NCBI RefSeq assembly: GCF_963675165.1
Contig: NC_087379.1
Span: forward strand, 620,001 to 684,000
Length of the DNA stretch: 64,000 nt
Reading direction: 5' to 3'
From: Halichondria panicea
Taxonomy: Eukaryota > Porifera > Demospongiae > Suberitida > Halichondriidae
Shown: piece by piece, positions 29,983 through 60,627 of the stretch
How positions within the stretch are numbered: the stretch's first letter is position 1
Layout: every line of letters begins with the position of its first letter
Notes under the pieces: generated by a model
Seen by the model: the letters and a program-made list of their open reading frames with translations, nothing else
The model's database searches: none
Told to the model about the DNA's origin: nothing
Made by a program: the position numbers and the translations under genes

Positions 29983-32202
29983 ATGGCTGAGAGGCCAAGT
30001 GCTGCTCAAGAAGCTCTCTCCAAAGTGGAGGACCAGCTGTCATGCCTAGTCTGTCTGGAGCCCTACACCAACCCTCGACTGCTCTCCTGTTTCCACGTCT
30101 ACTGTCAACATTGTCTCGAGGATATAGTTGCCCACAATCGACAAGGCCAGCTGGAATGCCCCAAGTGTCGCCGGCCCACCCCCCTACCCCCCACTGGTGT
30201 GAGTGGCCTCCAGGCTGCCTTCAATATACACCATCTCTTTGACATCCAGGAAACACTCAAGAAGGTGAAAGAGCCTCAGAAATTGGCCTGTGAGAAATGT
30301 GTGAAGACGACTCGTAAAGCCACCAGCTTTTGCCGACAATGCACCAAGTTCATCTGCGATCTGTGTACGAACATGCACAAAGAATACGAGGAGTTTGAAG
30401 GTCATGAAGTCGTTACTATCGAAAAAGTGGAAGGAGATTTGATTCGCTTGGTCTCCCCAAAGAAAACGTCCCCTCTCTGCTCCAAACATGACGAGAAAAT
30501 GAAACTTTATTGCGAAACTTGTGGGGAGTTGATTTGTCGAGATTGCCTCGTTCATATACACAAAGACCACAAGTACTGTGTGATTGCCGACACCTTTGAG
30601 AGCCACAAGAAAGAGATCCTGGACTCCCTGGGACCCGTTGAGAAACAGCTAGAGGCCACCGACACAACTCTCGTCAATCTGGATGGACAACATGCCGAAA
30701 TAGTTGAACACGGAGGAAAACTTGCGATCACTATCCACTCGAAATTCGATGAACTCCATCAAGTTCTGTATGCTCGTGAGGGGGAGCTGATGGCGGAGTT
30801 GGAAGGCCACACCCAACAACAGCTCAAGAGCCTCTCTGCTCAGCGAGAGGAGGTGGAGATCCTCCAAACCCAACGTAGCAGCTGCCTGCATTTCGTGAGG
30901 GAGAGCATTCGTACCGGGTCTCCAGGAGACGTGCTCAAAATGAAGCAAGGTGTGGTGAAGCAAGTGAGAGAGCTGGTGGAAACCTTTGACCCCAACACCC
31001 TAGAGCCTCGTGAGACAACCAACACCTGTTTTGTGCCTTCTGCTCAGCTAGTCAAAGATTGCAAAGAATTTGGAGCCATTGGCACACCATCAGTAACTGT
31101 CACTCCTACAAAAAGACTCGACAAAACCAGAGTACAAGGATCCACTAGTCTTCGATTTTCAAACACAAATCCATCCTCAAGCATTAAAGCCGAACTTATA
31201 GCAAAATCAACGAATCAGACGACAAACTGTGTTGTGAAGGAACGAGGGAAGGGAGAGTACGAGATCTCCTACCAGCCAACAGTGGGCGGGGCCAGCGAGC
31301 TGATCGTGAGAGTGGGTGGAGAGGAGGTGGCAGGAAGTCCATTCCCTGTGGCAGTCAAGACTCCGATCGATAAACTAGGAACTGTTATCAAAACTATGAA
31401 TGATCTCAAGAAACCTTGGGGAGTGGCACTCAACCAAGCTGAGGAGATAATTGTGGCTGAACGGGATGCTGGTATTGTCTCAATATTTAGCCCCACAGGA
31501 GACAAGCTGCGAACATTAGACACTCGAGGCACAGCTGTTGGGGAGATGAAGAATCCTCGTGGTGTGGCAGTGGACGGTGATGACAATATTCTGGTGGTGG
31601 ACTCTGGTAATCATCGACTGTTGAAGTTCTCACGTGGAGGAGACCTGATAGCAGTAGTAGGTAGTCATGGCGATGGTCCTGGACAGTTTAACAATCCGAT
31701 TCGTGTTTGTGTCAACAGTGTCAATGGGAAGGTGTATGTGGTTGATCATGGTGTTCACTGTGTTCATATCTTCAACTCTGACCTCACCTTCTCCAGCAAG
31801 TTCGGCAGTAAAGGCAGTGGTAATGGACAGTTTTACTATCCCTGGGACGTTGCATCCGATCGTAGTGGTTGTATGTATGTGGTTGATAATGCTAATCATC
31901 GAGTGCAAGTCTTCTCACCCGATGGTGGCTATCTGAGGCAGTTTGGGAAGGAAGGCAGTGGAAATGGAGAACTTAACTTCCCTGTCAGCATCTGTGTGCA
32001 CAGTGATGACCTGGTGTATGTGGGGGAGCGTGGGAACCATCGTGTCTCAGTGCTCACGTGTGAGGGAGTGTTTCTTAAGTCATTTGGATCATATGGATCA
32101 GGACCAGGACAGTTCGATCGGCCTCTTGGCATAGCAGTAAACCAGTGTGGTGTGGTGTATGTGTCTGATGATGACAACAATAGAGTGCAAATATTTTCCT
32201 AG
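29983..32202 (+). CDS. TRIM-NHL E3 ligase-like protein, copy B (intact)
   Basis: 739 residues, one coding exon. C3HC4 RING at residues 21-62 (C21, C24, C36, H38, C41, C44, C59, C62), B-box-like zinc modules at about 103-141 (CDLCTNMHKEYEEF) and 166-196 (CSKH...CETC...CRDC...HKDH), coiled coil about 205-335, filamin-type repeat about 395-470 (GEYEISYQPTV...GSPFPVAV), and six NHL blades to the C-terminus. Layout is that of the TRIM2/3/71 (C-VII) group: RING ubiquitin ligases whose propeller binds protein or RNA. The chosen ATG is the first after the CTCAG acceptor. The RING matches copies A and D and differs from C by one residue, but loop residues in every NHL blade differ among them. The linker before the filamin repeat (PSVTVTPTKRLDKTRVQGS) is shared with C but not A or D. 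No frame lesion. Confidence 0.92.
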   Translation: MAERPSAAQEALSKVEDQLSCLVCLEPYTNPRLLSCFHVYCQHCLEDIVAHNRQGQLECPKCRRPTPLPPTGVSGLQAAFNIHHLFDIQETLKKVKEPQKLACEKCVKTTRKATSFCRQCTKFICDLCTNMHKEYEEFEGHEVVTIEKVEGDLIRLVSPKKTSPLCSKHDEKMKLYCETCGELICRDCLVHIHKDHKYCVIADTFESHKKEILDSLGPVEKQLEATDTTLVNLDGQHAEIVEHGGKLAITIHSKFDELHQVLYAREGELMAELEGHTQQQLKSLSAQREEVEILQTQRSSCLHFVRESIRTGSPGDVLKMKQGVVKQVRELVETFDPNTLEPRETTNTCFVPSAQLVKDCKEFGAIGTPSVTVTPTKRLDKTRVQGSTSLRFSNTNPSSSIKAELIAKSTNQTTNCVVKERGKGEYEISYQPTVGGASELIVRVGGEEVAGSPFPVAVKTPIDKLGTVIKTMNDLKKPWGVALNQAEEIIVAERDAGIVSIFSPTGDKLRTLDTRGTAVGEMKNPRGVAVDGDDNILVVDSGNHRLLKFSRGGDLIAVVGSHGDGPGQFNNPIRVCVNSVNGKVYVVDHGVHCVHIFNSDLTFSSKFGSKGSGNGQFYYPWDVASDRSGCMYVVDNANHRVQVFSPDGGYLRQFGKEGSGNGELNFPVSICVHSDDLVYVGERGNHRVSVLTCEGVFLKSFGSYGSGPGQFDRPLGIAVNQCGVVYVSDDDNNRVQIFS

Positions 32203-32374
32203 TTTATTTTTGTTAATTAAATTTTGTTGAGTTATTGTAACATTGCTAATGAATATTGAAATTGAAACCAGTGAATTCTTTGCCCATGCTGTCCCTGTGT
32301 ACGTGTGTGCTGAGTCTCTCCTGTTATAGTCGTACCTTTAGTATCGTACCTCACCCCACCCCCCTCCGCTGCAG

Positions 32375-32560
32375 GGTCTCCATGGTGATATGGTGCTGGT
32401 GGCGGGCGTCAACACTTGTATGGCCAAGGTTAAGGTCGTCTGAGGAAGAGGGCGTGGCAGGGGGTGGAGCCTGATATCATCAAGCCACTAGCTACAGCCC
32501 TCCATGGATGTGTACATTCTGCCACTGCCACCCACAGAGGTCAAGGGTCACCGGGCTGGA
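32375..32560 (+). pseudogene. NUP210: NUP210 internal exon copy B (frameshift and deletion)
   Basis: Begins like copy A (GLHGDMVLV) but loses one C in AAGGTCGTCTG and about 20 bases of the VIENMMLQ region, so it cannot encode the NUP210 segment. Confidence 0.75.
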
Positions 32561-33449
32561 AGCCATCCTACAAGACATCAGTATTCTATTTTATATTGTG
32601 TGTGTGGGTGGTGTGTGACTGTGTGTGGGTGGGTGTGTGACTGTGTGGTGTGTGGATATTGTCTCGTTACAAACTAATGCTACATTTGTCCTTGCAGAAT
32701 CTCTTGTGCCGAGCCTGTTTCCATGACGATACGACCAGTGATTGGTCATATGCCAGACTGCCCTCTATTGACTCAGACCAACAATCATTTAGGTACACTA
32801 AGATTTACTATGATTTTTCAGAAACTATTGTCTTATTTGTAAATGTCCAGTTTCCTGTGCTGAGTGGACGACTTTTGAAATAACGATAATTATATAAATA
32901 TGGTGGGGTGCTTTACCTTGCTGCATTGGACGTGGTGATTGTCCAATCAGAATGCTCTACCCACCCCCCAGACCTCCTCACTACAACACAAGGACTCAGA
33001 TAGTAAGTGTGTTGTTGAGGGGGACAACTTTTGCCACTGATTTTAGCATACCATTACTTTGATAGAACTTCCTATAAGATTTACATGTGTGCCCGTGACT
33101 TGAATTTCGGTTGCCCGTTTCAATGATTTTTTTTCTGAAAGCTTAAAAAGAGCTCTTTCATTTGGTGTGCTTAAATCAATATCATTTATTAGCCCATGAA
33201 ATTTTTGAAGATGGACTATGGCATGGTCTTTTTATTTAAACGAGAAATGTTGGTGAGCTCAAAATGTGTGGGTTGATTGTGCCATTTATAATAATTATGT
33301 TTGAAATTGGACCACGTACCAGAACATACGTAAGTTATATGGCATCTCAATATCAGAGGGGGTGGGGCAGGTGAAGCTGTATATATAGGACTTTGAGAGC
33401 CCGTGACTTTACATTACGTACACACATCATTATCATTTGCCATACCCTA

Positions 33450-33655
33450 TAGCGTGTAATTTTCGTGGGGCAAAATATTCGTGGTTTTCGTGGTTGGAGG
33501 TCTGACCACGAATATTTTACCCACGAATGAAGCGACCTTGCCTACCTTTACCTGCAGTGCAAGCTGCAACCACGAAAATATTACCGATGAAATGTCTCAA
33601 TATTGCTGAACCACGAATATTTTGTCCCCCGAAAATTACCCGCTATACGGTATTT
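33450..33655. mobile_element. ACCGTATAGCGGG-type MITE
   Basis: Left CCTATAGCGTGTAATTTTCG and right CGAAAATTACCCGCTATACG are inverted repeats; the interior folds back again (CACGAATATTTT and its complement). No coding capacity. Confidence 0.75.
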
Positions 33656-34004
33656 GGTTGTGTTCAAAGTGTGTCTGTTGTGCAGCTCTAGTGTGTGAAT
33701 ATTTAGAATTCGAAATGTACGTAAGGACAGTTCACACAAAAATTTGCACCAACGAAAAGTGTGGTAGCTTTCATAAAACCATAAAACTATTGAAATTGGC
33801 CCACCAGACACTCATCCTAAACATTTCTAGTATCATAAGCTAGGTATGTTAGAATTGTGTCTGACTGCAACGTGTATACTATACTCTAATACCCAGTACA
33901 TTGTATACACAATTATGTGTTATTATACTCACATCATGCATACTACTATCTACTCCCCTCACACACACCCACCCACCCACCCACCCACACACACACACAC
34001 ACAG

Positions 34005-34302
34005 TCAGTCTTCTTTTTCTCTCCTCCTTCGCAATCCACCAGAACTAACGAAATACTGCTCTTCAATCACCCTCTAAACAAGGGCGCCCTCACTATAACC
34101 CACGGCTCTGATCATTCCTGATAATGTCATTGAGTTACTTGACTGTTTGCAGCACCCAGACACTGGTGAGGTTCATGACCTCCCGACCCTCATAACCAAG
34201 CACCAGGTGGTGGAGATCAACGACCCAGTGCAAGTGACCCCCAAACACCTCGTCATTCTCAGGGACCTCCAAACAGAGTTCAAATACCAGCACCAATTGA
34301 AT
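34005..34302 (+). pseudogene. NUP210: NUP210 internal exon (HPDTG type), copy B
   Basis: Opens after CACACAG, reads TNEILLFNHPLNKGALTITH, then a small insertion (GATCATTC) creates a stop; downstream the frame reads HPDTGEVHDLPTLITKHQVV and HLVILRDLQTEFKYQHQLN, matching vertebrate NUP210 (DGGVHILQVP...VEI...LTFPWQPKT). Donor AAT/GTGAGT. Confidence 0.75.
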
Positions 34303-34384
34303 GTGAGTGTGCTAGCTAGCTTGTTGAGAGCTAAACCTGTGTAGGGTACCAGCTACATAGGCTTGTACATGGCTTGTAATAATA

Positions 34385-35157
34385 ATTACCGTATAGCGAG
34401 TAATTTCCGTGAAGAAGTGAAAATTCGTTCATCTCGAAAGCGGTGATTTTCGTTTGACTTCATTGCCTGCAACCTACTGGTTTTACTAATACGTGTAGAT
34501 ATGAACAATTGTAAGGATCACGTTTATTTTGTTTCTAATACATGTATAACTATTAGATTGCATATGCAATTCCCGTACTTTGAATGCAATAATAAATCAA
34601 GCTTGTACAGTGTCATTCACAATCCATTAACTATCCGTACTCTTCAGGGAGAACCTATATATATGTCCTCAGGTTAGTGTGTGTTCATGACCTCCTTGAC
34701 AGTATGTGTACCCAGGTACATGTATAATTAGTGTGTGTAGTTGCAGTACATGTATTTGATTTCACACATCCGTCCTCTAACCACTTATCAATGCAAACAG
34801 CCACTTAGACCGCTGCACAAGTAGCTCATGTGTAATTTGCCAGAGGATATATACATTGTAACGGCTGGCTTGCGAGACTAGCTCTCATCATTCAACTAAT
34901 TTCACATTCGATGGTACTCTTGTTTTTACTAATACTACGTGATATGATGATCCCAGTATCATATTGAGTTTCAAATGCAGTGATTTTTCAATTGCAAATC
35001 TTATGTGTCGAAAGAAATGATTATAGATTGCAATTTCCATGCTTTGCATGCAATTTATTATAGTTACAACGCAATCAAGCTTGTACAGTGTCATTCACAA
35101 TCCATTAACCTCTCATTGGATAGTACTGTCCCTATTCCTGTGTTGTACACTACTGTC
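34385..35157. other. Non-coding spacer, units B-C
   Basis: AT-rich; includes a stub of the ACCGTATAGCG element (34388) and a displaced piece of the unidentified exon flank (GGGAGAACCTATATATATGT, 34649). The phrase CAAGCTTGTACAGTGTCATT occurs twice (34599, 35080). No gene seen. Confidence 0.45.
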
Positions 35158-35357
35158 TACCGTATATATATATGTTTCGTGTGGTAAAAAATTCGAGAAA
35201 AGGTGGTTTTCGTCAGTAAAAATTTCGTTTAGTCTCGTGGCTGCACGGCATTCCTACGTTCAGATAAGCCACGCCTACGTTAAAATTTCGTGGAGGTCAG
35301 CCTGCCCATAAAAATAACGAATATTTTACCCACGAAAATTACCCGCTATACGGTATT
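35158..35357. mobile_element. ACCGTATAGCGGG-type MITE upstream of kinase fragment C
   Basis: Left TACCGTATATATATATG and right CACGAAAATTACCCGCTATA, with flanking TA. Same family as 33450-33655. Confidence 0.65.
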
Positions 35358-35426
35358 TAATTGTAGATTGTGTTATTTATGTTTATGTGATCAATTTTCT
35401 GAACCAATTTTCCCTCCCCACACACT

Positions 35427-35997: not shown

Positions 35998-36347
35998 GTC
36001 AGTGTACCTACTGTGTGTGTGTAGGGGAGGGGGATACTCGTGCAAGCTGTGACCATGAGTTACAGTCAATAGTTAATTAAGCTTGGTGCAAAGATTTAGC
36101 CCTAAAAACAATTTTAACGTGGCTTAATATTGCTCGGTGAATTCCAGCGTCCAATAATTATTATATAATTATAGTGCAATAAAAATAATATTAATGATTA
36201 CGTATAATTATTATGCCACGCCCACACACACAGGTTGAAGATTAAACCGGACATAGTGTCAGATATCTAACCATGCAGCTAGCATACTTGTAGTGATATA
36301 TATGTGTCTCTCCCCTGCCCTAACCACACCCCCTCACACACGTGCAG

Positions 36348-37022
36348 GTGTTGGTAAGTCCACCCTCCTCCGCTCTATGGCGTGTCGTGAGCTGCGTCTA
36401 CCAGCTGGTGTGAGTGTACTACACGTGGAGCAAGAGGTCACCGGGGACAACACACTAGCGCTGGATAGTGTACTCGAGTGTGATACTGAGAGAGTGCAGC
36501 TGCTCGCTAGAGATGGGGAGCTACTGGCCTCAGGGGACAAGGACACAGCAGCAGGCAGGTCTGTGTACCAGGAATGGGGGGGGGGGGTGTTTTAAGTATA
36601 GTAAAATTACAATACTGAAAAATAAAATGTTATTACCAAATTAGTATCCAGCTATAATTATGGTTATCAGTGTGTAGGTGTCCTAGTGTGTAGTGTACTG
36701 TGTGTTTGACTGCTAGTGAGCATTCGTATGATTATGGTTTGTGTGTATATTTTCAGTCACTTATTTTCAGTACTTTATTTACCTTTCATCTGCCCCTCCC
36801 TCTGTATGTGTAGCGCTTCTGATGAGCTGGCTGAGGTATACCTTCCACTACAGGAGATAGACGCTGACAAAGCACCAGCAAGGTAACTGTACCCAGTAGA
36901 TCAAGTACCATCTTACACACTGTGCTCACTCACTCACTCACAGAGCTGGCTGTATTCTGGCTGGTCTGGGGTTCACTCCACAGAAGAATGAGATTTTATC
37001 TGGCTAAGACACTATTTGCAAC
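36348..37022 (+). pseudogene. ABCF3: ABCF3 three-exon fragment, copy C
   Basis: Blocks 36348-36558, 36814-36882 and 36944-37022. Walker A GVGKSTLLRSMA; first two blocks open. Last donor is AAC/GTAAGC instead of AAG. Confidence 0.8.
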
Positions 37023-37109
37023 GTAAGCAGTTTTTGAGAGACGGAAGTGCTGACATTAATTAATCTTCTGTTTTCTAGGGGAAGGTATGGGTGTTTTTTC
37101 AGAATCAGG

Positions 37110-37570
37110 CCTGTTTTCAGAGCTGTCTTTTAGCTGCCATAATTTGAATTCCGTGGATACAATTTCAATGATTTTCTGATTTTCTGAAAGCTTAGAAAGA
37201 GACCTTTCAAATGGTGTCATCAAAGTTTATATTTGAGAGATAAAAGTATTTGCCAATTTGGCCATACCATGAAGAATAGCCCATGGTCCAAGGCCGAAAA
37301 ATTACAAATTACATCTTTCAAATGGTGTCATCAAAGTTTATATTTGAGAGATAAAAGTATTTGCCAATTTGGCCATACCATGAAGAATAGCCCATGGTCC
37401 AAGGCCGAAAAATTACAAATTAGGGCTCCAACGAAATGTCGTATCGAAACACATCATTTATTTCTAAGCTTTCAGAAAATCATAATGTTTTGACATTGGA
37501 TCAACATTAATGCCATGCATTGAAGAATCAGGTTTGTTTTTAGAGCTATCTTTTAGAGGCCATAACTTGT
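37110..37570. repeat. Fold-back element copy, unit C, with internal 110-base duplication
   Basis: Same element as 12240-12610, but 37202-37310 (CTTTCAAATGGTGTCATC to AAAAATTACAAATTA) is directly repeated at 37311-37421 almost without change. The doubled block gives a spurious repetitive reading frame. Confidence 0.85.
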
Positions 37571-37710
37571 GTTAGGAACGTCCTATTTAAAAAACTCAAA
37601 GACGAATTCTGTAGCTCTGAGAAGACACTATTGTATACAATTAAAGTGTCTTAAAACCGCTAATTGCTCGCAGTGCCAAAGCTGACTAATTTGTGTGTCC
37701 TATGCTGTAG

Positions 37711-38176
37711 ATGTGGGAACACGGAACCATCGTCGGTTGTGTGCAGTGTATTATAGTCGTACCCCCAGGTTTGAAGTGATCCGTGGACTACTGGACTGTG
37801 TCATGCAGCTGCTGGAGGTGTCCTTCACCAAAGATGGCAGTGGATACTTCCTCAATGCAGCTGAAGGTGAGGGTTGCATAAGCACAGCTGTGTATGTGTG
37901 TTAGGGACTTGTGAAGGAACTACTGTATATGCATTCATTCCAGTTTGTTGGGAATTAGTGGCCTTGAGTTTTTGAAGTGTACGTGTTGGGAAGATTATTT
38001 TGTCAGAAAATTAATTCCTACAACTACACTTGCTCACTGCCCACACTTCTGCACTGCTTGTGTTTACCGCCCCCTCCTCTGCACACACTCCACAGACTCT
38101 ACCTATTTCCCGGACCGTTGTGCAGAGGTGTCTGTACGTGGGAAGGTGATCGGGAAACTGGGCGTGCTCCATCCTG
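37711..38176 (+). pseudogene. FARSB: FARSB two-exon fragment, copy C
   Basis: Blocks 37711-37866 and 38096-38176 with intact borders. Some residues differ at conserved places (IRGLLDCVMQ instead of [16 protein letters not shown] instead of LKAAEG), suggesting relaxed constraint. Confidence 0.75.
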
Positions 38177-39089
38177 GTATGTCTGTTGTGCAGCTCTAGT
38201 GTGTGTGAGACTGGGAGGTGTGTCTGGTGCAGCTGTTCTCACGGCCTCCTCCAACCAGTACCTGCCCTCCGTACTCTCCAGGGAGAACCTATTTCCTCAG
38301 GTTAGTATGTGTTTCATCATGACCTCCTTGACAGTATGTACCCAGGTGTGTGTTTAGAGTCAATACTGCAAGGTCATGTACTGTACATAATTATGTCATG
38401 TACATATAATTATAGCCTGGATCCCAGGGTAGGCCGGTGAACGAGGTAATCCTTTTGTTTGTAGTTAGTGTGCTTTAGTAACCATTAAAGATCTAACATA
38501 CTCTTCTTGAGGGGAGGGGTAGTTAAACACATTATTTTAGTACCGTTGATCCAATGTCAAAATTTATCGTATTTTTCGGCATTGGACCATCAGCTATTAT
38601 CCATGGTTGTGTCCAAATTAGTTTTGTAGCTCAAAATAATATGAACTTTGATGGCAAGATTTGAAAGGTATAATTATTATCTTGTTGAAATTGAATGCCC
38701 AAATTAAGATCGTTCTATTGTTTGATGTAGTAGTGAGATGAGCAAAATGTAACCCACGTGACAACGTTAGAATCTTTATCTCCATTTTGAAGATGTTCTT
38801 TCTTTGCAGCTAATTTAATACCATGACGATTATAGGCTCATGTGATTCCCATATCTGGGTATCATAATTATTAGCTTGTACATGTAGCTACATGTACAAT
38901 CAGTGTAAGATCTAACCTCGGTTCTAATTATTAGTATGTATGTGTGTGTGTGTGGGTTGTAGTACGTGATCTATGAAGTGGGAAGAAGGGGAAAGCATGG
39001 AATTAGAATGGGAAATTATTGGTCATACATTTTTTGTTGATTTTTGGTATTCCTTAGAATTTAGGAGGTAAAAATTAATTTCTGGTGGT

Positions 39090-40321: not shown

Positions 40322-42565
40322 ATGGCTGAGAGGCCGAGTGCTGCTCAAGAAGCTCTCTCCAAAGTGGAGGACCAACTGTCATGCCTAGTCTGTCTGAAGC
40401 CCTACACCAACCCTCGACTGCTCTCCTGTTTCCACGTCTACTGTCAACATTGTCTCGAGGATATAGTTGCCCACAATCGACAAGGCCAGCTGGAATGCCC
40501 CAAGTGTCGCCGGCCCACCCCCCTACCCCCCACTGGTGTGAGTGGCCTCCAGGCTGCCTTCAATATACACCATCTCTTTGACATCCAAGAAACACTCAAG
40601 AAGGTTAAAGAGCCTCAGAAATTGGCTTGTGAGAAATGCTCCAAAACGACTCGTAAAGCCACCAGCTTTTGCCGACAATGCACCAAGTTCATCTGCGATC
40701 TGTGTACGAACATACACAAAGAATACGAAGAGTTCGAAGGTCATGAAGTCGTTACTATCGAAAAAGTTGAGGGTGATTTGATTCGCTTGGTCTCCCCAAA
40801 GAAGACGTCCTCTCGCTGCCCTAAACACGACGACATAATGAGACTTTATTGCGAAACTTGTGGAGAAGTGATTTGTATCAATTGCACCGTCCAAATACAC
40901 AAAGACCACAAGTACTGTGTGATTGCCGACACCTTTGAGAGCCACAAGAAAGAGATCCTGGACTCCCTAGGACCCGTTGAGAAACAGCTAGAGGCCACCG
41001 ACACAGCTCTCGTCAATCTGGAAGGACGACATGCCGAAATTATTGAACACGGAGGAAAAATTGCGACCAATGTCCACTCGAAATTCGATGAGCTCCATCA
41101 AGCTCTGTATGCTCTTGAGGGGGAGCTTATGGCGGAGTTGGAAGGCCACACCCAACAACAGCTCAAGAGCCTCTCTGCTCAGCGAGAGGAGGTGGAGATC
41201 CTCCAAACCCAACGTAGCAGCTGCCTGCATTTTGTGAGGGAGATCATTCGTACCGGGTCTCCAGGAGACGTGCTCAAGATGAAGCAAGGTGTGGTGAAGC
41301 AAGTGAGAGAGCTGGTGGACACCTTTGACCCCAACACCCTAGAGCCTCGTGAGACAACCAACACCTGTTTTGTGCCTTCTGCTCAGCTAGTCAAAGATTG
41401 CAAAGAATTTGGAGCCATCGGTATACCATCAGTAACTGTCACCCCTACAAAAAGACTCGACAAAACCAGAGTACAAGGATCCACTAGTCTTCGATTTTCA
41501 AACACAAATCATCCACTGATCCAAATTCCATCCTTGAACATTAAAGCCGAACTTATATCGAAATCAACGAATCAGACGACAAACTGTGTTGTGAAGGAAC
41601 GAGGGAAGGGAGAGTACGAGATCTCCTACCAGCCAACAGTGGGCGGGGCCAGCGAGCTGATCGTGAGAGTGGGTGGAGAGGAGGTGGCAGGAAGTCCATT
41701 CCCTGTAGCAGTCAAGACTCCGATCGATAAACTAGGAACTGTTATCAAGACTATCAATGATCTCAAGAAACCTCATGGAGTGGCACTCAACCAAGCTAGG
41801 GAGATAATTGTGCCTGAACAGGGTGCTGGTATTGTCTCGATATTTAGCCCCACAGGAGACAAGCTGCGAACATTAGACACTCGAGGCACAGCTGTTGGGA
41901 AGATGAAGAATCCTTGTGGTGTGGCAGTGGACGGTGATGACAATATTCTGGTGGTGGACGGTGGTAATTATCGACTGTTGAAGTTCTCACGTGGAGGAGA
42001 CATGATAGCAGCAGTTGGTAGTCATGGCGATGGTCCAGGACAGTTTAACTATCCGAATTGTGTTTGTGTCAACAGTGTCAATGGGAAGGTGTATACGTAT
42101 GTGGTTGATAACGGTGCTCACTGTGTTCATATTTTCAACTCTGACCTCACCTTCTCCAGCAAGTTCGGCAGTAAAGGCAGTGGTAATGGACAGTTTAATC
42201 GTCCCTGGGACGTTGCATCCGATCGTAGTGGTTGTGTGTATGTGGCTGATGCTGGTAATACTCGAGTGCAAGTCTTCACACCCGATGGTGGCTATCTGAG
42301 GCAGTTTGGGAAGAAAGGCGGTGGAAATGGAGAACTTTACTACCCTGCCTGCATCTGTGTGGACTGTGATGATCTGGTGTATGTGGCGGAGTATGGGAAC
42401 AAGCGTGTCTCAGTGTTCACGTATGAGGGAGTGTTTCTCAAGTCGTTTGTATCACCTGGATCTGGACCAGGACAGTTCAACAGTCCTTATGGAATAGCAG
42501 TAGACCAGTGTGGTGTGGTGTATGTGTGTGATAATGGCAACAATAGAGTGCAAATATTTTCCTAG
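40322..42565 (+). CDS. TRIM-NHL E3 ligase-like protein, copy C (intact)
   Basis: 747 residues, one coding exon; RING, B-boxes, coiled coil, filamin repeat and six NHL blades as in copy B. RING differs from copy B by a single residue (CLKPY for CLEPY). B-box 1 region matches B (CDLCTN-HKEYEEF), while the preceding cysteine pair region (CSKTTRKATS) and B-box 2 (CINCTVQIHKDH) match copy D, so it looks mosaic. An extra HPLIQIPS insertion lies before the filamin repeat and an extra YT in blade 3 (VYTYVVDNGAH). NHL loops are copy-specific: KKPHG, DGGNYR, NYPNC, DNGAHC, NRPWD, DAGNTR, YYPAC, EYGNKR, NSPYG, DNGNNR. No lesion. Likely cytoplasmic RING ligase; target unknown. Confidence 0.92.
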   Translation: MAERPSAAQEALSKVEDQLSCLVCLKPYTNPRLLSCFHVYCQHCLEDIVAHNRQGQLECPKCRRPTPLPPTGVSGLQAAFNIHHLFDIQETLKKVKEPQKLACEKCSKTTRKATSFCRQCTKFICDLCTNIHKEYEEFEGHEVVTIEKVEGDLIRLVSPKKTSSRCPKHDDIMRLYCETCGEVICINCTVQIHKDHKYCVIADTFESHKKEILDSLGPVEKQLEATDTALVNLEGRHAEIIEHGGKIATNVHSKFDELHQALYALEGELMAELEGHTQQQLKSLSAQREEVEILQTQRSSCLHFVREIIRTGSPGDVLKMKQGVVKQVRELVDTFDPNTLEPRETTNTCFVPSAQLVKDCKEFGAIGIPSVTVTPTKRLDKTRVQGSTSLRFSNTNHPLIQIPSLNIKAELISKSTNQTTNCVVKERGKGEYEISYQPTVGGASELIVRVGGEEVAGSPFPVAVKTPIDKLGTVIKTINDLKKPHGVALNQAREIIVPEQGAGIVSIFSPTGDKLRTLDTRGTAVGKMKNPCGVAVDGDDNILVVDGGNYRLLKFSRGGDMIAAVGSHGDGPGQFNYPNCVCVNSVNGKVYTYVVDNGAHCVHIFNSDLTFSSKFGSKGSGNGQFNRPWDVASDRSGCVYVADAGNTRVQVFTPDGGYLRQFGKKGGGNGELYYPACICVDCDDLVYVAEYGNKRVSVFTYEGVFLKSFVSPGSGPGQFNSPYGIAVDQCGVVYVCDNGNNRVQIFS

Positions 42566-46196: not shown

Positions 46197-46684
46197 GTGA
46201 GAAGTGGTTAACTTACTTTAAAACTGTATGCCAAACTAACCGTACTGAAAATAATAATTATGACAAACAAACGGCCTGTTGGGACAAATGGTAGCCTAGG
46301 GACTCGGCTAATTAGAGTGAGTTTAGGTCTCTCAAGTATTTACACACAATATGTTGGGAGCTACATAAATCGACCATTCTACCAGGTAGCTATACTGGAA
46401 CAGGGAGAAGAACACAAGGCATTATTAGTCTTTGGTCCTTTTTATTATGTTAATTGGTGGCTGTGATTATTATGCTCTCCGTCTCATGATGCATTGAGCA
46501 CCTCTCCACAGAAGAAATGGATGGTCAGAACTCTCTATTGAACATGAAAATAGAAACTGTTTCATACTGCTGAATAGTAGTATTCATTTGTAAGAACAGA
46601 AATCTAACCATGCAGTTAGCATACTTGTAGTGATACACGTGTGTCTCTCCCCTGCCCTAATCACACACCCTCACACACGTGCAG

Positions 46685-47328
46685 GTGTTGGCAAGTCCAC
46701 CCTCCTCCGCTCTATGGCGTGTCGTGAGCTGCGTCTACCAGCTGGTGTGAGTGTACTACACGTGGAGCAAGAGGTCACCGGGGACAACACACTAGCACTG
46801 GATAGTGTACTCGAGTGTGACACTGAGAGAGTGCAGCTGCTCGCTAGAGAGGGGGAGCTACTGTCCTCAGAGGACAAGGACACAGCAGCAGGCAGGTCTG
46901 TGTACCAGGGGGGGGGGTGTTTTAAGTATAGGAAAATTACAATGATGAAAAATAGTATCCAGCTATAATTATGGTTACCAGTGTGTAGGTGTCCTAGTGT
47001 GTAGTGTACTGTGTGTTTGACTGCTAGTGAGCATTCGTATGATTATGGTTTGTGTGTATATTTTCAGTACTTATTTTCAGTACTTTATTTACCTTTCATC
47101 TGCCCCTCCCTCTGTATGTGTAGCGCTTCTGATGAGCTGGCTGAGGTATACCTTCCACTACAGGAGATAGACGCTGACAAAGCACCAGCAAGGTAACTGT
47201 ACCCAGTAGATCAAGTACCATCTTACACACTGTGCTCACTCACTCACAGAGCTGGCTGTATTCTGGCTGGTCTGGGGTTCACTCCACAGAAGAATGAGAT
47301 TTTATCTGGCCAGGACACTGTTTGCAAG
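46685..47328 (+). pseudogene. ABCF3: ABCF3 three-exon fragment, copy D (best preserved)
   Basis: Blocks 46685-46895, 47124-47192 and 47250-47328, all open with intact splice sites: GVGKSTLLRSMACRELRLPA, LHVEQEVTGDNTLALDSVLE, SDELAEVYLPLQEIDADKAP, CILAGLGFTPQKNEILSGQD. Without the rest of ABCF3 it is a fragment; a spliced chimeric RNA cannot be excluded. Confidence 0.8.
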
Positions 47329-47409
47329 GTAAGCAGTTTTTGAGAGACGGAAGTGCTGACATTAATTAATCTTCTGTTTTCTAGGGGAAGGCGTGAGTGT
47401 TTTTTCAGA

Positions 47410-47760
47410 ATCAGGCCTGTTTTCAGAGCTATCTTTTAGCTGCCATAACTTGAATTCCGTGGATACAATTTCAATGTATTTTCTGAAAGCTTAGAAAGAG
47501 ACTTGTCATCAAAGTTTATATTTGAGAGATAAAAGTATTTGCCAATTTGGCCATACCATGAATAATAGCCCATGGTCCAAGGCAGAAAATTACAAATTGC
47601 CCCCAACAAAATTTCGGATCGAAACACATCATTTGAAAGGTCTCTTTCTAAGCTTTCAGAAAATCATAATATTTTTGACATTGGATCAACGGTATTAAAG
47701 TAATGGCTGTTGAAAAATCAGGTTTGTTTTTAGAGCTATCTTTTAGAGGCCATAACTTGT
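47410..47760. repeat. Fold-back element copy, unit D
   Basis: Same inverted-arm element as at 12240-12610, between the ABCF3 and FARSB blocks; one arm has lost about 8 bases (GAGACTTGTCATC). Confidence 0.7.
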
Positions 47761-47900
47761 GTTAGGAACGTCCTATTTAACAAGCTCAAAGACGCATTCT
47801 GTAGCTCTGAGAAAGCACTATTGTATACAATTAAAGTGTGTTAAAACCGCTAATTGCTCGCAGTGCCAAAGCTCACTAATTTGTGTGTCCTATGCTGTAG

Positions 47901-48365
47901 ATGTGGGAACACGGAACCATCGTCGGTTGTGTGCAGTGTATTATAGTCGTACCCCCGGGTTTGAAGTGATCCATGGACTACTGGACCGTGTCATGCAGCT
48001 GCTGGAGGTGTCCTTCACCAAAGATGGCAGTGGATACTTCCTCAAGGCAGCTGAAGGTGAGGGTTGCATAAGCACAGCTGTGTATGTGTGTTAGGGATTT
48101 GTGAAGGAACTACTGTATATGCATTCAGTCCAGTTTGTTGGGAATTAGTGGCCTTGAAGTTTTTTGAAGTGTATGTGTTGGAAAGATTATTTTGTCAGAA
48201 AATTAATTCCTACAACTACCTCACTGCCCACACTTTTGCACTACTTGTGTTTACCGCCCCCTCCCCTGCACACACACTTCACAGACTTTACCTATTTCCC
48301 GGGCCGTTGTGCAGAGGTGTGTGTACGTGGGAAGGTGATCAGGAAACTGGGCGTGCTCCATCCTG
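47901..48365 (+). pseudogene. FARSB: FARSB two-exon fragment, copy D
   Basis: Blocks 47901-48056 and 48285-48365, open with intact borders: [40 protein letters not shown], then YFPGRCAEVCVRGKVIRKLG. Best copy, still only a piece of the synthetase. Confidence 0.8.
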
Positions 48366-48489
48366 GTGTGTCTGTTGTGCATTTCTAGTGTGTGTGAGAC
48401 AGGGAGGTGTGTCTGGTGCAGCTGTTCTCACGGCCTCCTCCAACCAGTACCTGCCCTCCGTACTCTCCAGGGAGAACCTATCTCCTCAG

Positions 48490-49147
48490 GTTAGTGTGTG
48501 TTCATCATGACCTCCTTGACAGTATGTACCCAGGTGTGTGTTTAGGGTCAATACTGCAAGGTCATGTACTGTACATAATTATGTCATGTACATATAATTA
48601 TAGCCTGGATCCCAGGGTAGGCCGGTGAACGAGGCTAGTACATATAATCCTTTTGATTGTAGTTAGGGTGCTTTAGTAACCATTAAAGATCTAACGTACT
48701 CTTCTTGAGGGGAGGGGTAGTTAATTATTTTAAACAGCCATAACTTTAGTACCGTTGATCCAATGTCATTATTTGCTTAAAGCGACTTTCAAATGATGTG
48801 CTTGGAAACATTTGAAAGGTATATCACACAGAATATCAGAAAATCGTTGAAATTGAATGCCCAAAGATCGTACTATTGTAGTCAGAAGAGCAAAATGTAA
48901 CCCACGTGATAACGTTAGAATTTTTCTCTCCATTTTGAGGATGTTCTTTCTTTGCAGCTAATTTTAATACCATGACGATATTGTGTTTAGGCTCATGTGA
49001 TTCCCATATCTGGGTATCATCTTACGTTTAGGTGTTTTGTGGCTTGTAGCTACATGTACAATCAGTGTAGCCTTTGTTCTGACAATGTGGATTTGCTAAT
49101 TACTTGTGTGTGTGTGTGTTTGGAAAGGGGGTATGTAACCTTGGTTG
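48490..49147. other. Non-coding spacer, unit D
   Basis: Parallels 13342-14100 and 38301-39060 with several deletions; conserved phrases GTAACCCACGTGA and GTACATGTAGCTAC-like words. No gene seen. Confidence 0.5.
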
Positions 49148-49508: not shown

Positions 49509-49953
49509 GGTTGGATTTGCCATTAGTCCATAATGAAAAGTCTATTTGTGTTGAGTTTCACCTTCATAAAGTTAACTTTGTCATACTTCACTGAAATTCA
49601 AAGTTTCATATACCATTGGATTCCTTGTTAAAAAGCGCTTCTATCTATATGCTGTAGAGCTGGTAAGCTCCAACCAGCTAAAAGTTAGCATTTTCCATGC
49701 AGAAGTCCCAGGCATACTTGTCCACCACGTAAAGCATAAATGAAGCCATAATTGACCACATAACTTCCGGGGTCGAACTCAATGCAAATAGACTTTAGTT
49801 TTGTAGGTAATCTGTGTAAGAGCGTGCGAGTGGTTGTAGTACGTGATCCATGAAGTGGGCAGAAGGGGAGAGCATGGAATTAGAATGGGAAATTATTGGT
49901 TGTACCGGGGTAGTGTCGTACATATTTTGTGGATTTTCGGTATTCCATAGAAC

Positions 49954-50451
49954 CATAGATTGAAGAGTTAGAGGGATAGGAAGAGGAGTGGTGCACGTGA
50001 TTATTTTACATTGAATCTGCAGTGGAGCCTCGAAAATTATCCGCGTTACGAGGCTATTAAGCACATTTTTGCCGGGTAACTCCCAAAGCTGTGTTTCCTC
50101 GAGACATCATCTCTTTCAGCAATTTATAACACGCCTAGTCCATGAGCCACGTGTAGTACTTGCTAATGACTGACCACACCCAGTAAAAAGAACAAAGTTA
50201 TATATGTTCCCAAGGCAGTTTTAGAGCTATTGGAACATATAACGTGTAAGCGTGCTGGTTATGACTACTACAATAGGTATAGACCTTGAAATATAAGTGA
50301 GTTGCACGGACTAAGCACAGTTACTTGTAGTTTATTATGCACTGAGTGTAGAAATAGATATTGTTGTGATGGCCTCGATTAAACCGCAGCGTAGCGCGGA
50401 TGTTACTCGAGATACCAACCGTTTCCTATCCCTCTAACTCTTCAATCTATG
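49954..50451. mobile_element. MITE with perfect 28-base inverted ends and 7-base target duplication
   Basis: Begins CATAGATTGAAGAGTTAGAG and ends with its exact complement. ATAGAAC flanks both sides; unit B shows the empty site (TGTAGAACTTGGGAGG, 27262-27277). A degraded sibling lies at 10184-10660. Confidence 0.88.
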
Positions 50452-50454
50452 ATA

Positions 50455-51025
50455 GAACTTGGGAGGTTGTGTATTTTGGGGGTTGGGAAGAGGTTTTTGT
50501 GTATTGCGTTTAGTTGTGGTGAAAAATGTCTGGTGGTTTCTTGCAATTGATGTTCTATATCTTGAGTTGGTGTTGTTGTGTTAATCTGTACGTACTTTGG
50601 TCACAGAGTACAAGAGAGCATTTTTGTATGTAGTCGTCCGTATCTATGCCAAGATTTGTGTCTGCTGGTTTTATGGTGACTTTGGTTCTTTGTTGTTTAA
50701 GTTTGGCGAGGGCATATCGTGTGTTTGTTCAGGTTGGATGTTGTTTGGTTAAATATGAGTGATAGTTTTTCGTCCAATTTGTTTGGTCAATGTACGCTTC
50801 TAATTTATAAAGTGGGCATTCTGAATATACTTGAGTTTAAGTTACATAATTCGATTTCGGTAAATTTCATTCGTCTGTTGATTGTTTTGTCTCTGTCTCG
50901 CTGGGTATCTCCTGGTGCGTTGTTGAGCTTGTATATATTGCTCATCCCTTCAACACTGGATTATTGTCATTAGCAAGAAAAGTTTTGATACGTAAATATC
51001 TCGACCACAAGAGAAGGCCGGTGGT
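50455..51025 (-). mobile_element. Penelope-like remnant, unit D
   Basis: Nucleotide match to the unit A-C remnants (GTAGTCGTCCGTATCTATGC, GGTTGGATGTTGTTTGGTTA), with much of the middle deleted. No meaningful open frame remains; identification rests on the other copies. Confidence 0.5.
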
Positions 51026-51281
51026 ACCATTTGAAGGGTCTCTTTCTAAGCTTTCAGAAAAACATAAAATATTTGATTTTCGATCCACAGAATTCAAGTT
51101 ATGGCAGCTGAAAGATTCCCAAAATCAGATTAAACGGAGGGGGGGGTGGGTGTTTTTTAACTGCCATAACTTCAGTAAAGTTGATCCAATGTCAAATATT
51201 TTATGATTTTCTGAAAGCTTAGAAAAATACCTTTCAAATGGTGTGTTTCCACACTACCATAGTAGTAAAAAAATAAATGAT

Positions 51282-51924
51282 TCTGGCCTGGTGAGTGGGC
51301 CTCGACATTTACTAAAACAATAAGTTTGTTTCTGGCCTAGTGAGTGACCAGGTAGTAAAAAAATAAAATAAAAGTTTGATTCTGGCCTGGTGAGTGGGCC
51401 TCGACATGTAGTAAAAAAAATAAGTTTGTTTCTGGCCTGGTGAGTGACCAGGTAGTAAAAAAATAAAAATAAAAGTTTGTTTCTGGCCTAGTGAGTGACC
51501 AGGTAGTAAAAAAATAAAAATAAAAGTTTGTTTCTGGCCTGTTGAGTGGGCCTCGACATTTACTAAAAAAATAAGTTTGATTCTGGCCTGGTGAGTGGGC
51601 CTCGACATGTAGTAAAAAAATAAGTTTGTTTCTGGCCTATAGTGAGTGACCAGGTAGTATAAAAATAAAAGTTTGATTCTGGCCTGGTGAGTGGGCCTCG
51701 ACATGTAGTAAAAAAATAAGTTTGTTTCTGGCCTGTTGAGTGGGCCTCGACATTTACTAAAAAAATAAGTTTGATTCTGGCCTGGTGAGTGGGCCTCGAC
51801 ATGTAGTAAAAAAAATAAGTTTGTTTCTGGCCTAGTGAGTGACCAGGTAGTAAAAAAATAAAATAAAAAGTTTGATTCTGGCCTGGTGAGTGGGCCTCGA
51901 CATTTACTAAAAAAATAAGTTTGG
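51282..51924 (+). repeat. About 50-base satellite, 13 units
   Basis: Alternating variants of TTCTGGCCTGGTGAGTGGGC plus CTCGACATTTACTAAAAAAATAAGTTTG-type and TAGTGAGTGACCAGGTAGTAAAA-type tails. Present only in unit D, between fold-back sequence and the conserved TRIM upstream region. The 214-codon minus-strand frame across it is repeat-driven and not a gene. Confidence 0.92.
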
Positions 51925-52314
51925 TGTGAGTGGGTGGGGCAATGGAGTCCACTCAACCATGCATCTCATGGACCCAATTAAGAGTGTTCTAACATAATTA
52001 TACACATAGAGATTATCATCCGTATGTATGTATGTATGTATGCTGATTTTGTATTATGATGAATTTGAATACATTTTGTGATCTTGTGTGTGTGCATTGG
52101 GTGCATGATGTGAGATCAATTTCAACATGGTATGGAGTGTTGTTAACATGGAGGGTGACATTGTATGAGTGTGTGTTGTCTGTATCTCAGGCAACTGGTC
52201 AGAGGACTAGCAATAGAGTGGGTGTAGAATGTTGCTAGGCAATATAGCCACAAGTATGTGTGTACCATTATGGTCTAACCATAATCAATACTTTGATCCT
52301 ATGAATATTGTTGT

Positions 52315-52413
52315 GCATGCATCACCTGACCTGTCACTGTGAGAGCTGTGAGTCTATAGCTGCTTTTGCCAAGCTTTGAGCTTTTCTTTCTACTACTAAA
52401 CACTTTTCTAAAG
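52315..52413 (+). promoter_or_regulatory. 5' non-coding exon and upstream block of TRIM-NHL D
   Basis: Matches the A-C blocks; donor AAAG/GTGAGC, acceptor CCCCTCAG at 52540-52547. The preceding 300 bases (52050-52310) are closest to unit A (15060-15320), including GGTGCATGATGTGAGATCAA. Confidence 0.65.
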
Positions 52414-52557
52414 GTGAGCATAATTATTGTACATGTTCTGATACATTCGTTTGTAGTTTTCGTTGCTTGAATTCTTTGCTATTATTATTATAAAGCTTGA
52501 CACGCCCCCTTTTTAGCGTATTGTTATCCTTTTCTCTCCCCCCTCAGTTTTGTGTCA

Positions 52558-54768
52558 ATGGCTGAGAGGCCGAGTGCTGCTCAAGAAGCTCTCTCCAAAG
52601 TGGAGGACCAGCTGTCATGCCTAGTCTGTCTGGAGCCCTACACCAACCCTCGACTGCTCTCCTGTTTCCACGTCTACTGTCAACATTGTCTCGAGGATAT
52701 AGTTGCCCACAATCGACAAGGCCAGCTGGAATGCCCCAAGTGTCGCCGGCCCACCCCCCTACCCCCCACTGGTGTGAGTGGCCTCCAGGCTGCCTTCAAT
52801 GTACACCATCTTTTTGACATCCAGGAAACACTCAAGAAGATTAAAGAGCCTCAGAAATTAGCCTGTGAGAAATGCTCCAAAACGACTCGTAAAGCCACCA
52901 GCTTTTGCCGACAATGCACCAAGTTCATCTGCGAGAAGTGTACCGATATGCACAAAGAGTGGGAGGAGTTCGAAGGTCACGAAGTTGTCACTATCGAAAA
53001 AGTGGAAGGGGATTTAATTCGTCTTGTTTCTCCGAATAAGGTGACCCCTCGCTGCCCCAAACACAACAAAAGCCTCAAGTTGTACTGTGAACCTTGTGGA
53101 GAGTTGATCTGTATCCATTGCACCGTCCAAATACACAAAGACCACAAGTACTGTGTGATTGCCGACACCTTTGAGAGCCACATGAAAAATATCTTGGACT
53201 CCCTGGGACCCGTTGAGAAACAGCTAGAGGCCACCGACACAGCTCTCGTCAATCTGGATGGACGACATGCCGAAATTGTTGAACACAGAGGAAAAATTGC
53301 GACCAATATTCACTCGAAATTTGATGAGATTCGTCGAGCTCTTGATGCTCGTGAGGGGGAGCTTATGGCCGAGTTGGAAGGCCACACCCAACAACAGCTC
53401 AAGAGCCTCTCTGCTCAGCGAGAGGAGGTGGAGATCCTCCAAACCCAACGTAGCAGCTGCCTGCATTTCGTGAGGGAGAGCATTCGTACAGGGTCTCCAG
53501 GAGACGTGCTCAAGATGAAGCAAGGTGTGGTGAAGCAAGTGAGAGAGCTGGTGGACACCTTTGACCCCAACACCCTAGAGCCTCGTGAGACAACCAACAC
53601 CTTGTTTGTGCCTTCTGCTCAGCTAGTTAAAGAGTGCAAGAAGTTCGGTGTCTTATATTGTGATATTGTTATTCCTCAAAAAGCAATTGTTGGACAAAAA
53701 GTAACTGCATATTATCGATTCCTCTGTCCCCTAAATTCAGCACCACCAGAAGCCAAACTTATCTCCAAAATAACTGACAAAACCACAAACTGTGTTGTGA
53801 AGGAACGAGGGAAGGGAGAGTACGAGATCTCCTACCAGCCGACAGTGAGCGGGGCCAGCGAGCTGATTGTGAGTGTGGGTGGAGAGGAGGTGGCAGGAAG
53901 TCCATTCCCTGTGGCAGTCAAGACTCCGATCGATAAACTAGGAACTGTTATCAAGACTATCAATGATCTCAGGAAACCTCGAAGTGTGGCACTCAACCAA
54001 GCTGGGGAGATAATTGTGGCTGAACTTGATGCTGGTATTGTCTCGATATTTAGCCCCACAGGAGACAAGCTGCGAACATTAGACACTCGAGGCACAGCTG
54101 TTGGGGAGATGAAGAAACCTCGTGGTGTGGCAGTGGACGGTGATGACAATATTCTGGTGGTGGACGCTGTTAATCATCGACTGTTAAAGTTCTCACGTGG
54201 AGGAGACCTGATGGCAGCAGTTGGTAGTCATGGCAATGGTCCTGGACAGTTGAACGATCCTTATGGTGTTTGTGTCAACAGTGTCAATGGGAAGGTGTAT
54301 GTGGTTGATCGTCTAGCTCACTGTGTTCACATCTTCAACTCTGACCTCACCTTCTCCACCAAGTTCGGCAGTGAAGGCAGTGGTAATGGACAGTTTAAAT
54401 ATCCCTGGGACGTTGCATCCGATCGTAGTGGTTGTGTGTATGAGGTTGATCATGGTAATTATCGAGTGCAAGTCTTCACACCCGATGGTGGCTATCTGAG
54501 GCAGTTTGGGGCGAAGAGAGGCAGTGGAAATGGAGAACTTGACAGGCCTGCCAGCATCTGTGTGGACAGTGATGATCTGGTGTATGTGGGGGAGAGTGGG
54601 AACAAGCGTGTCTCAGTGTTCACGTGTGAGGGAGTGTTTCTCAAGTCGTTTGGATCGTATGGATCTGGACCAGGACAGTTCGACAGTCCTTATGGCATAG
54701 CAGTAGACCAGTGTGGTGTGGTGTATGTGTCTGATTGTAGCAACAATAGAGTGCAAATATTTTCCTAG
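52558..54768 (+). CDS. TRIM-NHL E3 ligase-like protein, copy D (intact)
   Basis: 736 residues, one coding exon, with RING (C3HC4, identical to copy B), two B-box modules, coiled coil, filamin repeat and six NHL blades. The B-box 1 segment (CEKCTDMHKEWEEF) and the linker (IPQKAIVGQKVTAYYRF) pair it with copy A; the CSKTTRKATS and CTVQIHKDH segments pair it with C. B-box 2 is the most divergent (CPKHNKSLKLYCEPC). NHL loops: RKPRS, ELDAG, DAVNHR, NDPYG, DRLAHC, KYPWD, DHGNYR, DRPAS, ESGNKR, DSPYG, DCSNNR. One extra residue in FGAKRGSGNGE. No lesion. Likely a RING ubiquitin ligase with a substrate-binding propeller; target unknown. Confidence 0.92.
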   Translation: MAERPSAAQEALSKVEDQLSCLVCLEPYTNPRLLSCFHVYCQHCLEDIVAHNRQGQLECPKCRRPTPLPPTGVSGLQAAFNVHHLFDIQETLKKIKEPQKLACEKCSKTTRKATSFCRQCTKFICEKCTDMHKEWEEFEGHEVVTIEKVEGDLIRLVSPNKVTPRCPKHNKSLKLYCEPCGELICIHCTVQIHKDHKYCVIADTFESHMKNILDSLGPVEKQLEATDTALVNLDGRHAEIVEHRGKIATNIHSKFDEIRRALDAREGELMAELEGHTQQQLKSLSAQREEVEILQTQRSSCLHFVRESIRTGSPGDVLKMKQGVVKQVRELVDTFDPNTLEPRETTNTLFVPSAQLVKECKKFGVLYCDIVIPQKAIVGQKVTAYYRFLCPLNSAPPEAKLISKITDKTTNCVVKERGKGEYEISYQPTVSGASELIVSVGGEEVAGSPFPVAVKTPIDKLGTVIKTINDLRKPRSVALNQAGEIIVAELDAGIVSIFSPTGDKLRTLDTRGTAVGEMKKPRGVAVDGDDNILVVDAVNHRLLKFSRGGDLMAAVGSHGNGPGQLNDPYGVCVNSVNGKVYVVDRLAHCVHIFNSDLTFSTKFGSEGSGNGQFKYPWDVASDRSGCVYEVDHGNYRVQVFTPDGGYLRQFGAKRGSGNGELDRPASICVDSDDLVYVGESGNKRVSVFTCEGVFLKSFGSYGSGPGQFDSPYGIAVDQCGVVYVSDCSNNRVQIFS

Positions 54769-60565: not shown

Positions 60566-60627
60566 GTGTGTCTAGCCCTGTTGTGCAGCTCTAGTGTGTG
60601 TGAGACTGGGAGGTGTGTCTGGTGCAG

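Follow-up and report, generated by a model that had tools for sequence, protein, structure and literature searches.

Diversifying selection on propeller loops of tandem TRIM-NHL genes in the sponge Halichondria panicea and their putative role in recognition

How sponges distinguish microbes and other sponges is an open question, and we know of no adaptive immunity in these animals. A stretch of 64,000 nucleotides from Halichondria panicea (G000:C3:620001-684000, where G000 is our label for the species' own genome; hereafter the window) carries tandem TRIM-NHL genes. A preliminary description, made from the letters alone, had placed hypervariable residues of four gene copies (A to D) in the same two loops of every NHL blade and proposed that a recognition surface of RING E3 ligases is under diversifying selection; this raises the question of what such genes might recognise. 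We report that tandem, single-exon TRIM-NHL genes in three separate arrays appear to be under diversifying selection on one propeller face, formed by the D-A and B-C loops, and that the arrays probably represent a recognition repertoire of E3 ubiquitin ligases encoded in the germline. From sequence, as for all functional statements below, we infer an immune or allorecognition role for them.

Selection on one face of the NHL propeller

Copies B, C and D are intact, single-exon genes with RING, B-box, filamin and NHL domains (Table 1); the NHL match of copy B in Pfam has E = 1.9e-37. All loop strings that had been quoted for the four copies are present in the sequence, and the range given for them (29983-54768) has to be corrected, as copy A lies outside it at 15573-18482 and is broken. 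Protein searches of G000, where counts are lower bounds because only the best candidates were scored, gave at least 24 matches spanning all of copy B (family F1), with identities of 75-100%. All but one of the 24 lack an in-frame stop, and 23 are on C3 (69-257 kb, 650-794 kb and 1.86-1.91 Mb) and one on C8. Family F2, located at 5.89-6.31 Mb of C3, comprises at least 28 long matches (37-39% identity to copy B, two with an in-frame stop), and family F3, on C11 at 0.86-1.30 Mb, at least 44 open frames of ≥640 amino acids (aa) with a B-box match, as counted among the frames listed; sampled F3 frames are ~30% identical to copy B. The tests were run on 20 of the 23 unbroken full-length F1 genes (L071, L072 and L073 were left out, as were the broken copies A, L009, L014, L024, L026 and L028, the NHL-only copies L011, L016, L018 and L034, and the duplicates L006 and L008), 14 of the 28 long F2 matches, and 19 of 20 F3 frames aligned out of the at least 44 (L059, with its start mis-set, was dropped and L069 and L070 were not added).

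The loops had been defined on copies in the window, and the 17 paralogues sampled from elsewhere in the genome hence constitute an independent test. Among these, an entropy of ≥1.5 bits was found in 25 of the 65 loop columns and in 3 of the 213 other NHL columns (p = 5e-15), i.e. the concentration in the loops is beyond chance; 23 of the 65 loop columns barely vary (entropy under 0.5). The ratio of non-synonymous to synonymous differences per site (pN/pS) was 2.05 in the loops (bootstrap confidence interval 1.37-3.29) vs 0.65 (0.45-0.96) in the rest of the NHL domain. The proposed diversifying selection is thus supported by this count with a local synonymous rate, as well as by the codon-wise dN/dS site models that had been suggested as a check, which likewise put loop sites above 1. 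These models were run with our own code (codon model, F3x4 frequencies, fixed tree) and not with a standard package. For the F1 NHL part, the comparison of models M1a and M2a gave twice the log-likelihood difference (2ΔlnL) as 550 with 12% of the codons at a dN/dS (omega) of 10.3, and 26 of the 30 codons with a posterior >0.9 in this single-tree fit are within the predefined loops. Using six trees for six segments, 2ΔlnL was 362 and omega 8.2, with 32 selected codons; the corresponding values are 140, 5.9 and 17 codons for F2, and 312, 5.1 and 24 codons for F3.

Recombination among the paralogues is strong (pairwise homoplasy index, PHI, permutation p = 0.001 for whole genes in all three families; p = 0.04 for F1 NHL alone), and for this reason simulations based on F1 only were made, with omega ≤1 and a shuffled tree for each of 12 or 30 segments. 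Twelve such recombination-only simulations gave 2ΔlnL values of 18-74 and omega up to 3.5. The NHL signals are above this range and those of the RING/B-box halves (20, 15.6 and 6.4, with 7, 3 and 1 codons >0.9, in F1, F2 and F3, respectively) are not, and hence no selection is claimed for the RING/B-box halves. A recombination artefact as source of the NHL signal was rejected, given that it persists with the six segment trees and that the simulations reach only 74. Since recombination makes the fitted rates rough, a loop pN/pS of ~2, measured against the local synonymous yardstick, is our conservative statement.

The propeller was modelled with AlphaFold using residues 375-739 of copy B and 44 other sequences (predicted local distance difference test score, pLDDT, 91.7; predicted template modelling score, pTM, 0.87), and the NHL match, the model and its fold neighbours all support a six-bladed NHL propeller. 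In a propeller the D-A and B-C loops share a common face. With loops and faces assigned from the DSSP strands of the model, the 32 codons selected in the segment-tree fit distribute over the D-A loops (12), the B-C loops (13) and the second or third residue of strand A (7); none falls among the 54 positions of the bottom (A-B and C-D) loops or in strands B, C and D. The selected sites are therefore on one face or at its edge, and not scattered over the propeller, in keeping with the surface that had been proposed.

In structure, the propeller is closest to zebrafish LIN41, fly Thin and mammalian TRIM71; TRIM2/3 is also among the top folds, and these folds include RNA complexes. LIN41 contacts RNA phosphates through Arg564, Arg581, Arg611 and Lys628, and Asp629 binds as well (PMC5908797; this and the other cited papers are represented here by excerpts). 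The first four align to the selected columns 637, 654, 685 and 702, and Asp629 aligns to column 703 (posterior 0.66). The basic contact residues are not conserved, i.e. the four aligned Arg/Lys positions are hypervariable in the family. As the protein of that paper is the zebrafish one and the chain used here is another entry, the contact assignment is by letter spacing; of 400 numbering offsets, a single one brings all five letters into register with the TRIM71 chain segment.

The variable columns of F1, F2 and F3 fall at common motif places, namely the residues flanking the P of the blade-entry (D-A) loop, those around the N of the D/E-x-x-N-x-R (B-C) loop, and one after FGS. Among the 20 F1 genes, 16-30 of the 32 selected sites differ in every gene pair; these sites are composed of Y (17%), N (13%), G (10%), R (9%) and D (7%), among others, with a net charge per F1 gene between -3 and +8 (mean 1.5). 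The propeller frame is nearly fixed among the paralogues, as are the RING and most B-box metal ligands: C21, C24, C36, H38, C41, C44, C59 and C62 of the RING are kept in 20/20 F1 paralogues, and the remaining Cys and His up to residue 210 vary only at H191 (9/20) and C199 (18/20). Some details of the preliminary description do not extend to the family. A third variable position, close to the start of the D-A loop (columns 628, 676 and 723), had been overlooked. The blade 2 entry loop varies least in copies A to D, as stated, and not in the family, where column 536 reaches 2.69 bits and is selected together with column 538. Likewise, the near invariance noted for the residues between the loops does not hold for the pre-filamin linker and part of the B-boxes. 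The linker (F1 alignment columns 365-410) is strongly different among paralogues, with a median dS of 0.33 for linker plus filamin, and looks like a few shuffled sequence types.

Exchange between copies and gene content

The NHL-only copies L016 and L018 differ at 38 of 1143 aligned bases, and 32 of these differences fall in a central 260-bp stretch of the propeller; in a wider comparison (66 mismatches in 2635 columns), 33 mismatches are in three adjacent bins (390 columns) that include this tract. Judged from the letters, it is an exchange tract, most simply due to gene conversion. The donor of the L018 tract was not found, the best match being 91%. Propeller-only open frames without RING, B-box and filamin occur in L011 (2470-3336), L016 (2608-3474), L018 (2743-3609) and L034 (minus strand). 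They start directly at the propeller, with letters before the ATG that are nearly those of copy B, and are possible decoys or gene-conversion donors.

Other assemblies provide insight into gene content. In ENA, contig 729079 has six listed F1 proteins that are 99.9-100% identical to G000, and L033 has an identical counterpart in P0032 on contig 56374. Contig 311980 has five members and is assigned to Halichondria panicea because two of them match G000 genes (P0006, 99.5% to copy C; P0035, 100% to L071); for the other three (P0007, P0009 and P0023) no match >90.5% was found among the G000 loci (all 24 full-length F1 matches, not every fragment). Moreover, P0021 on contig 7355 is 99.0% identical to L032. 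For eight more F1 proteins (contigs 196971, 17454, 4609 and 7190), which may come from other individuals or from different species, the G000 loci gave no match >94%. With the identical contigs set aside, 3 of the 14 proteins compared are thus at ≥99% and 11 at ≤94%, which points to differences in gene content within the species, the comparison being between contigs rather than defined individuals.

The loop pattern recurs in two protein groups from other contigs (23 and 30 proteins, picked from the best 120 matches), with 26/65 variable loop columns vs 3/211 other columns, and 30/65 vs 21/212, respectively. On six single contigs with 6-17 paralogues each, the loops have 2.4-3.9 times more amino-acid difference than the remaining residues; two of these contigs account for 16 of the 23 first-group proteins. 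For the other-contig groups the pattern is at the protein level only, and relaxed constraint may therefore account for it. A search with one other-contig protein gave 3025 matches, and with copy D as the query no relative closer than those found before came up. Two further sets were seen in G000, i.e. a tandem set on C5 at 5.62-5.80 Mb (at least 14 B-box frames, and three NHL matches among those listed there) and a B-box cluster on C13 at 5.26-5.38 Mb (at least 16 matches, frames of ~240-460 aa, no NHL match among those listed), which is perhaps a different TRIM-like array.

A probable recognition repertoire and its alternatives

The constant RING module, the variable face, the many copies, the exchange between them and the differences in gene content have the look of a recognition repertoire. 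In such a repertoire each gene would have its own binding specificity, and the face would bind a varied and changing set of ligands, most likely proteins of intracellular parasites, viruses or microbes, or non-self variants. Binding would be followed by ubiquitination through the RING module, while conversion and duplication would give new loop combinations of which selection would keep the useful ones. More tentatively, and as a suggestion that may well prove too broad, ~100 or more germline TRIM-NHL genes in several arrays per genome could be the main intracellular non-self recognition repertoire of the sponge, combining a constant RING with an antibody-like propeller face that is reshuffled by conversion, with individual-specific gene content, and convergent with fungal het-d/het-e. 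Several points weigh against a selected recognition repertoire. Four of the 30 columns selected in the single-tree fit are outside the predefined loops; recombination inflates the fitted rates, and the local-dS count gives only ~2; and loop pS is about double the frame pS (0.119 vs 0.062), perhaps since the loops escape homogenisation or as a result of the counting method. Some copies are alike at the selected sites (minimum difference 0/24 in F3 and 2/17 in F2), and in F1 the third base is unvarying in 10 of the 32 selected codons where 6.3 are expected, a number reached by 14 of 200 simulations. Near-allelic pairs have no loop difference (0 of 2 differences for P0006 and copy C; 0 of 7 for P0021 and L032, compared from about residue 125), P0035 and L071 are identical over 622 residues, and ongoing selection is consequently not proven. 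Finally, the putative E3 activity is deduced from the RING metal ligands alone.

Could the face instead bind RNA, as in LIN41/TRIM71 and Brat, with the diversification tracking viral, transposon or host RNA? The nearest folds with their RNA complexes, the four contact positions that align to selected codons and the rapid evolution of NHL RNA recognition (PMC5908797) are in favour of this, and against it are selected sites that are not consistently basic, with many Y, N, G and D, and the loss of the basic contact residues of LIN41; the composition gives no indication of a shared basic surface for RNA, and RNA may still be a ligand, but an RNA-recognition repertoire appears somewhat unlikely to us. 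The arrays might also set self/non-self specificity between sponge individuals. The gene content of contig 311980 (two of five members at 99.5-100% to G000, three at ≤90.5%) would fit allorecognition, as would the geometry shared with the het-d/het-e propellers that act in vegetative incompatibility (PMC1805685, PMC12222747), yet we found no link of the sponge genes to graft rejection and such diversity fits pathogen defence as well; we regard allorecognition as their function as unlikely.

Two further explanations do without a selected binding face. That the loops are simply unconstrained, and gene conversion homogenises the remainder, would agree with the strong recombination and the doubled loop pS. 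However, pN exceeds pS inside the loops and the bottom loops have no selected site, which disfavours relaxed constraint; in addition, the recombination-only simulations stay far from 550, and no significant difference in synonymous diversity was seen between unchanged framework codons up to three codons away from a selected site and those elsewhere (p = 0.41, 0.29 and 0.10 for the three families), so that this explanation is improbable. A targeted mutator of the loops, resembling a diversity-generating retroelement or hypermutation, was considered on account of the fixed third bases, as variation in the selected codons is often at positions 1 and 2, with the third base unchanged. The numbers of codons with an unvarying third base in F2 (3 vs 4.1 expected) and F3 (7 vs 6.1) lack the excess of F1, and the diversity at third vs first-and-second positions is in no family below that of simulated ordinary codon evolution (observed/simulated 0.48/0.40 in F1, 0.56/0.47 in F2 and 0.62/0.48 in F3). 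Nor is there a clear rise in synonymous diversity beside the loops; in F3 it is lower there (p = 0.10). Variable positions are without A in 6/64, 5/36 and 7/50 cases, the allele-like pairs lack loop differences, and the signature of a diversity-generating retroelement, changes confined to template adenines in AAY-type codons, was not seen. Because ordinary codon evolution comes close and the flanking synonymous diversity does not differ significantly, no targeted mutator is needed, and we consider one extremely improbable.

The closest parallel to the sponge arrays, read as a recognition repertoire, is the HNWD family of NLRs in Podospora anserina (het-d and het-e). These have a conserved WD40 propeller with four codons per repeat under diversifying selection, in the d-a loop (7 and 9) and the b-c turn (25 and 27), i.e. 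the same two places as in the sponge NHL, and units are exchanged between the genes (PMC1805685, PMC12222747). The selected codons in the D-A and B-C loops of the sponge blades have this HNWD-type placement. The two systems differ in propeller (WD40 vs NHL), effector (NACHT/HET vs RING/B-box) and host (fungus vs animal), and, by eye, in that the six sponge blades are distinct whereas the repeats within an HNWD gene are 80-100% alike; neither NACHT nor WD40 had a match in the Pfam scan of copy B. Large TRIM sets with selection on C-terminal loops, kept under recombination controls, are also known from the fish families finTRIM (ftr), btr and trim35/hltr, and from TRIM5-alpha (PMC3137616). In finTRIM, btr and trim35 the variable domain is B30.2 (SPRY), which had no match in the Pfam scan of copy B. 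With LIN41/TRIM71, Thin, TRIM2/3 and Brat the sponge genes share common domain types and the fold, and the upper face of LIN41 binds RNA (PMC5908797). Unlike the sponge genes, TRIMs without SPRY are described as a conserved group 1 with a mean human-mouse Ka/Ks of 0.13, and a single expansion in invertebrates is noted, that of the filamin-related subgroup in worm and fly (PMC2533329).

In Halichondria panicea the expression of pattern-recognition genes is largely individual-specific and ubiquitination genes respond to lipopolysaccharide, findings that are not tied to TRIM-NHL genes (PMC8242945). Among the literature matches listed, with most subscription journals outside the coverage, none dealt with hypervariability of, or positive selection on, the NHL domains of sponges; one match for "tripartite motif" in a sponge paper refers to DNA motifs, and the main text of a paper on Dysidea NLRs has neither TRIM nor NHL. 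A TRIM class described as conserved elsewhere here bears the marks of an immune-type repertoire, some of its selected residues being at the positions where LIN41 touches RNA, and what appears to be an inherited repertoire of recognition proteins would be present in one of the oldest animal lineages. If so, animals and fungi have independently arrived at a variable receptor on one and the same face of a beta-propeller, and non-self recognition in sponges can be tested on concrete genes.

Gene copies and other features of the window

Table 1. TRIM-NHL copies of the window and the loops of copy B (selected columns are those of the F1 alignment; positions are counted from the first letter of the window)
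Feature	Position	Strand	Remarks
Copy A, RING/B-box half, closed by in-frame stop	15573..16796	+	TGA at 16796
Copy A, NHL half, new frame segment	17457..18482	+	~660 bp from RING/B-box half
Copy B, TRIM-NHL, 739 aa, intact, reference copy	29983..32202	+	Pfam RING, B-box, filamin, NHL
Copy B RING finger, C3HC4, residues 21-62	30043..30168	+	eight ligands in 20/20 paralogues
Copy B filamin-type domain match, residues 405-454	31195..31344	+	Pfam
Copy B blade 1 D-A (entry) loop, KKPWG	31408..31422	+	selected columns 487, 489
Copy B blade 1 B-C loop, ERDAG	31459..31473	+	selected columns 506, 507
Copy B blade 2 D-A loop, KNPRG	31549..31563	+	selected columns 536, 538 (539 in segment-tree fit)
Copy B blade 2 B-C loop, DSGNHR	31600..31617	+	selected column 557
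Copy B blade 3 D-A loop, NNPIR	31690..31704	+	selected columns 587, 589
Copy B blade 3 B-C loop, DHGVHC	31744..31761	+	selected columns 607, 608 (610 in segment-tree fit)
Copy B blade 4 D-A loop, YYPWD	31834..31848	+	selected columns 637, 639 (636 in segment-tree fit); Y619 aligned to LIN41 Arg564
Copy B blade 4 B-C loop, DNANHR	31885..31902	+	selected columns 654, 655, 657; N636 aligned to LIN41 Arg581
Copy B blade 5 D-A loop, NFPVS	31975..31989	+	selected columns 684, 685, 687; F666 aligned to LIN41 Arg611
Copy B blade 5 B-C loop, ERGNHR	32026..32043	+	selected columns 702, 705; R683 aligned to LIN41 Lys628
Copy B blade 6 D-A loop, DRPLG	32116..32130	+	selected columns 731, 732, 734
Copy B blade 6 B-C loop, DDDNNR	32167..32184	+	selected columns 749, 751
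Copy C, TRIM-NHL, 747 aa, intact	40322..42565	+	near-allele P0006 on another contig, 99.5% identical
Copy D, TRIM-NHL, 736 aa, intact	52558..54768	+	identical 606-aa protein P0039 on another contig

A splice-acceptor-like sequence directly precedes the ATG of copy B and suggests an intron in the 5' untranslated region. The segment that splits copy A (16774-17456) has TTAA at both ends and, by eye, imperfect inverted ends (GGCCTGGGTC / GACCCGGGCC), as expected for a small transposon with a TTAA target. Behind copy A, a frame at 18532-19116 matches the nuclear pore glycoprotein NUP210, and similar letters are present behind copy B and the loci L014 and L034; this may be a piece of a host gene that was duplicated with the array.

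A second repeat of the tandem units, ~91-95% identical between its copies, is at 11439-13583, 24408-26542, 36260-38539, 46597-48803 and 58780-60866. Frames in the copy at 24-26 kb match ABCF1 and the phenylalanyl-tRNA synthetase beta chain and are perhaps exon pieces carried along during duplication. Upstream of copy D, the region 51258-51923 has internal direct repeats of ~82-87% identity, and the long minus-strand frame over these repeats is without a Pfam match. Outside the array, a protein kinase gene is present at 8367-9587.

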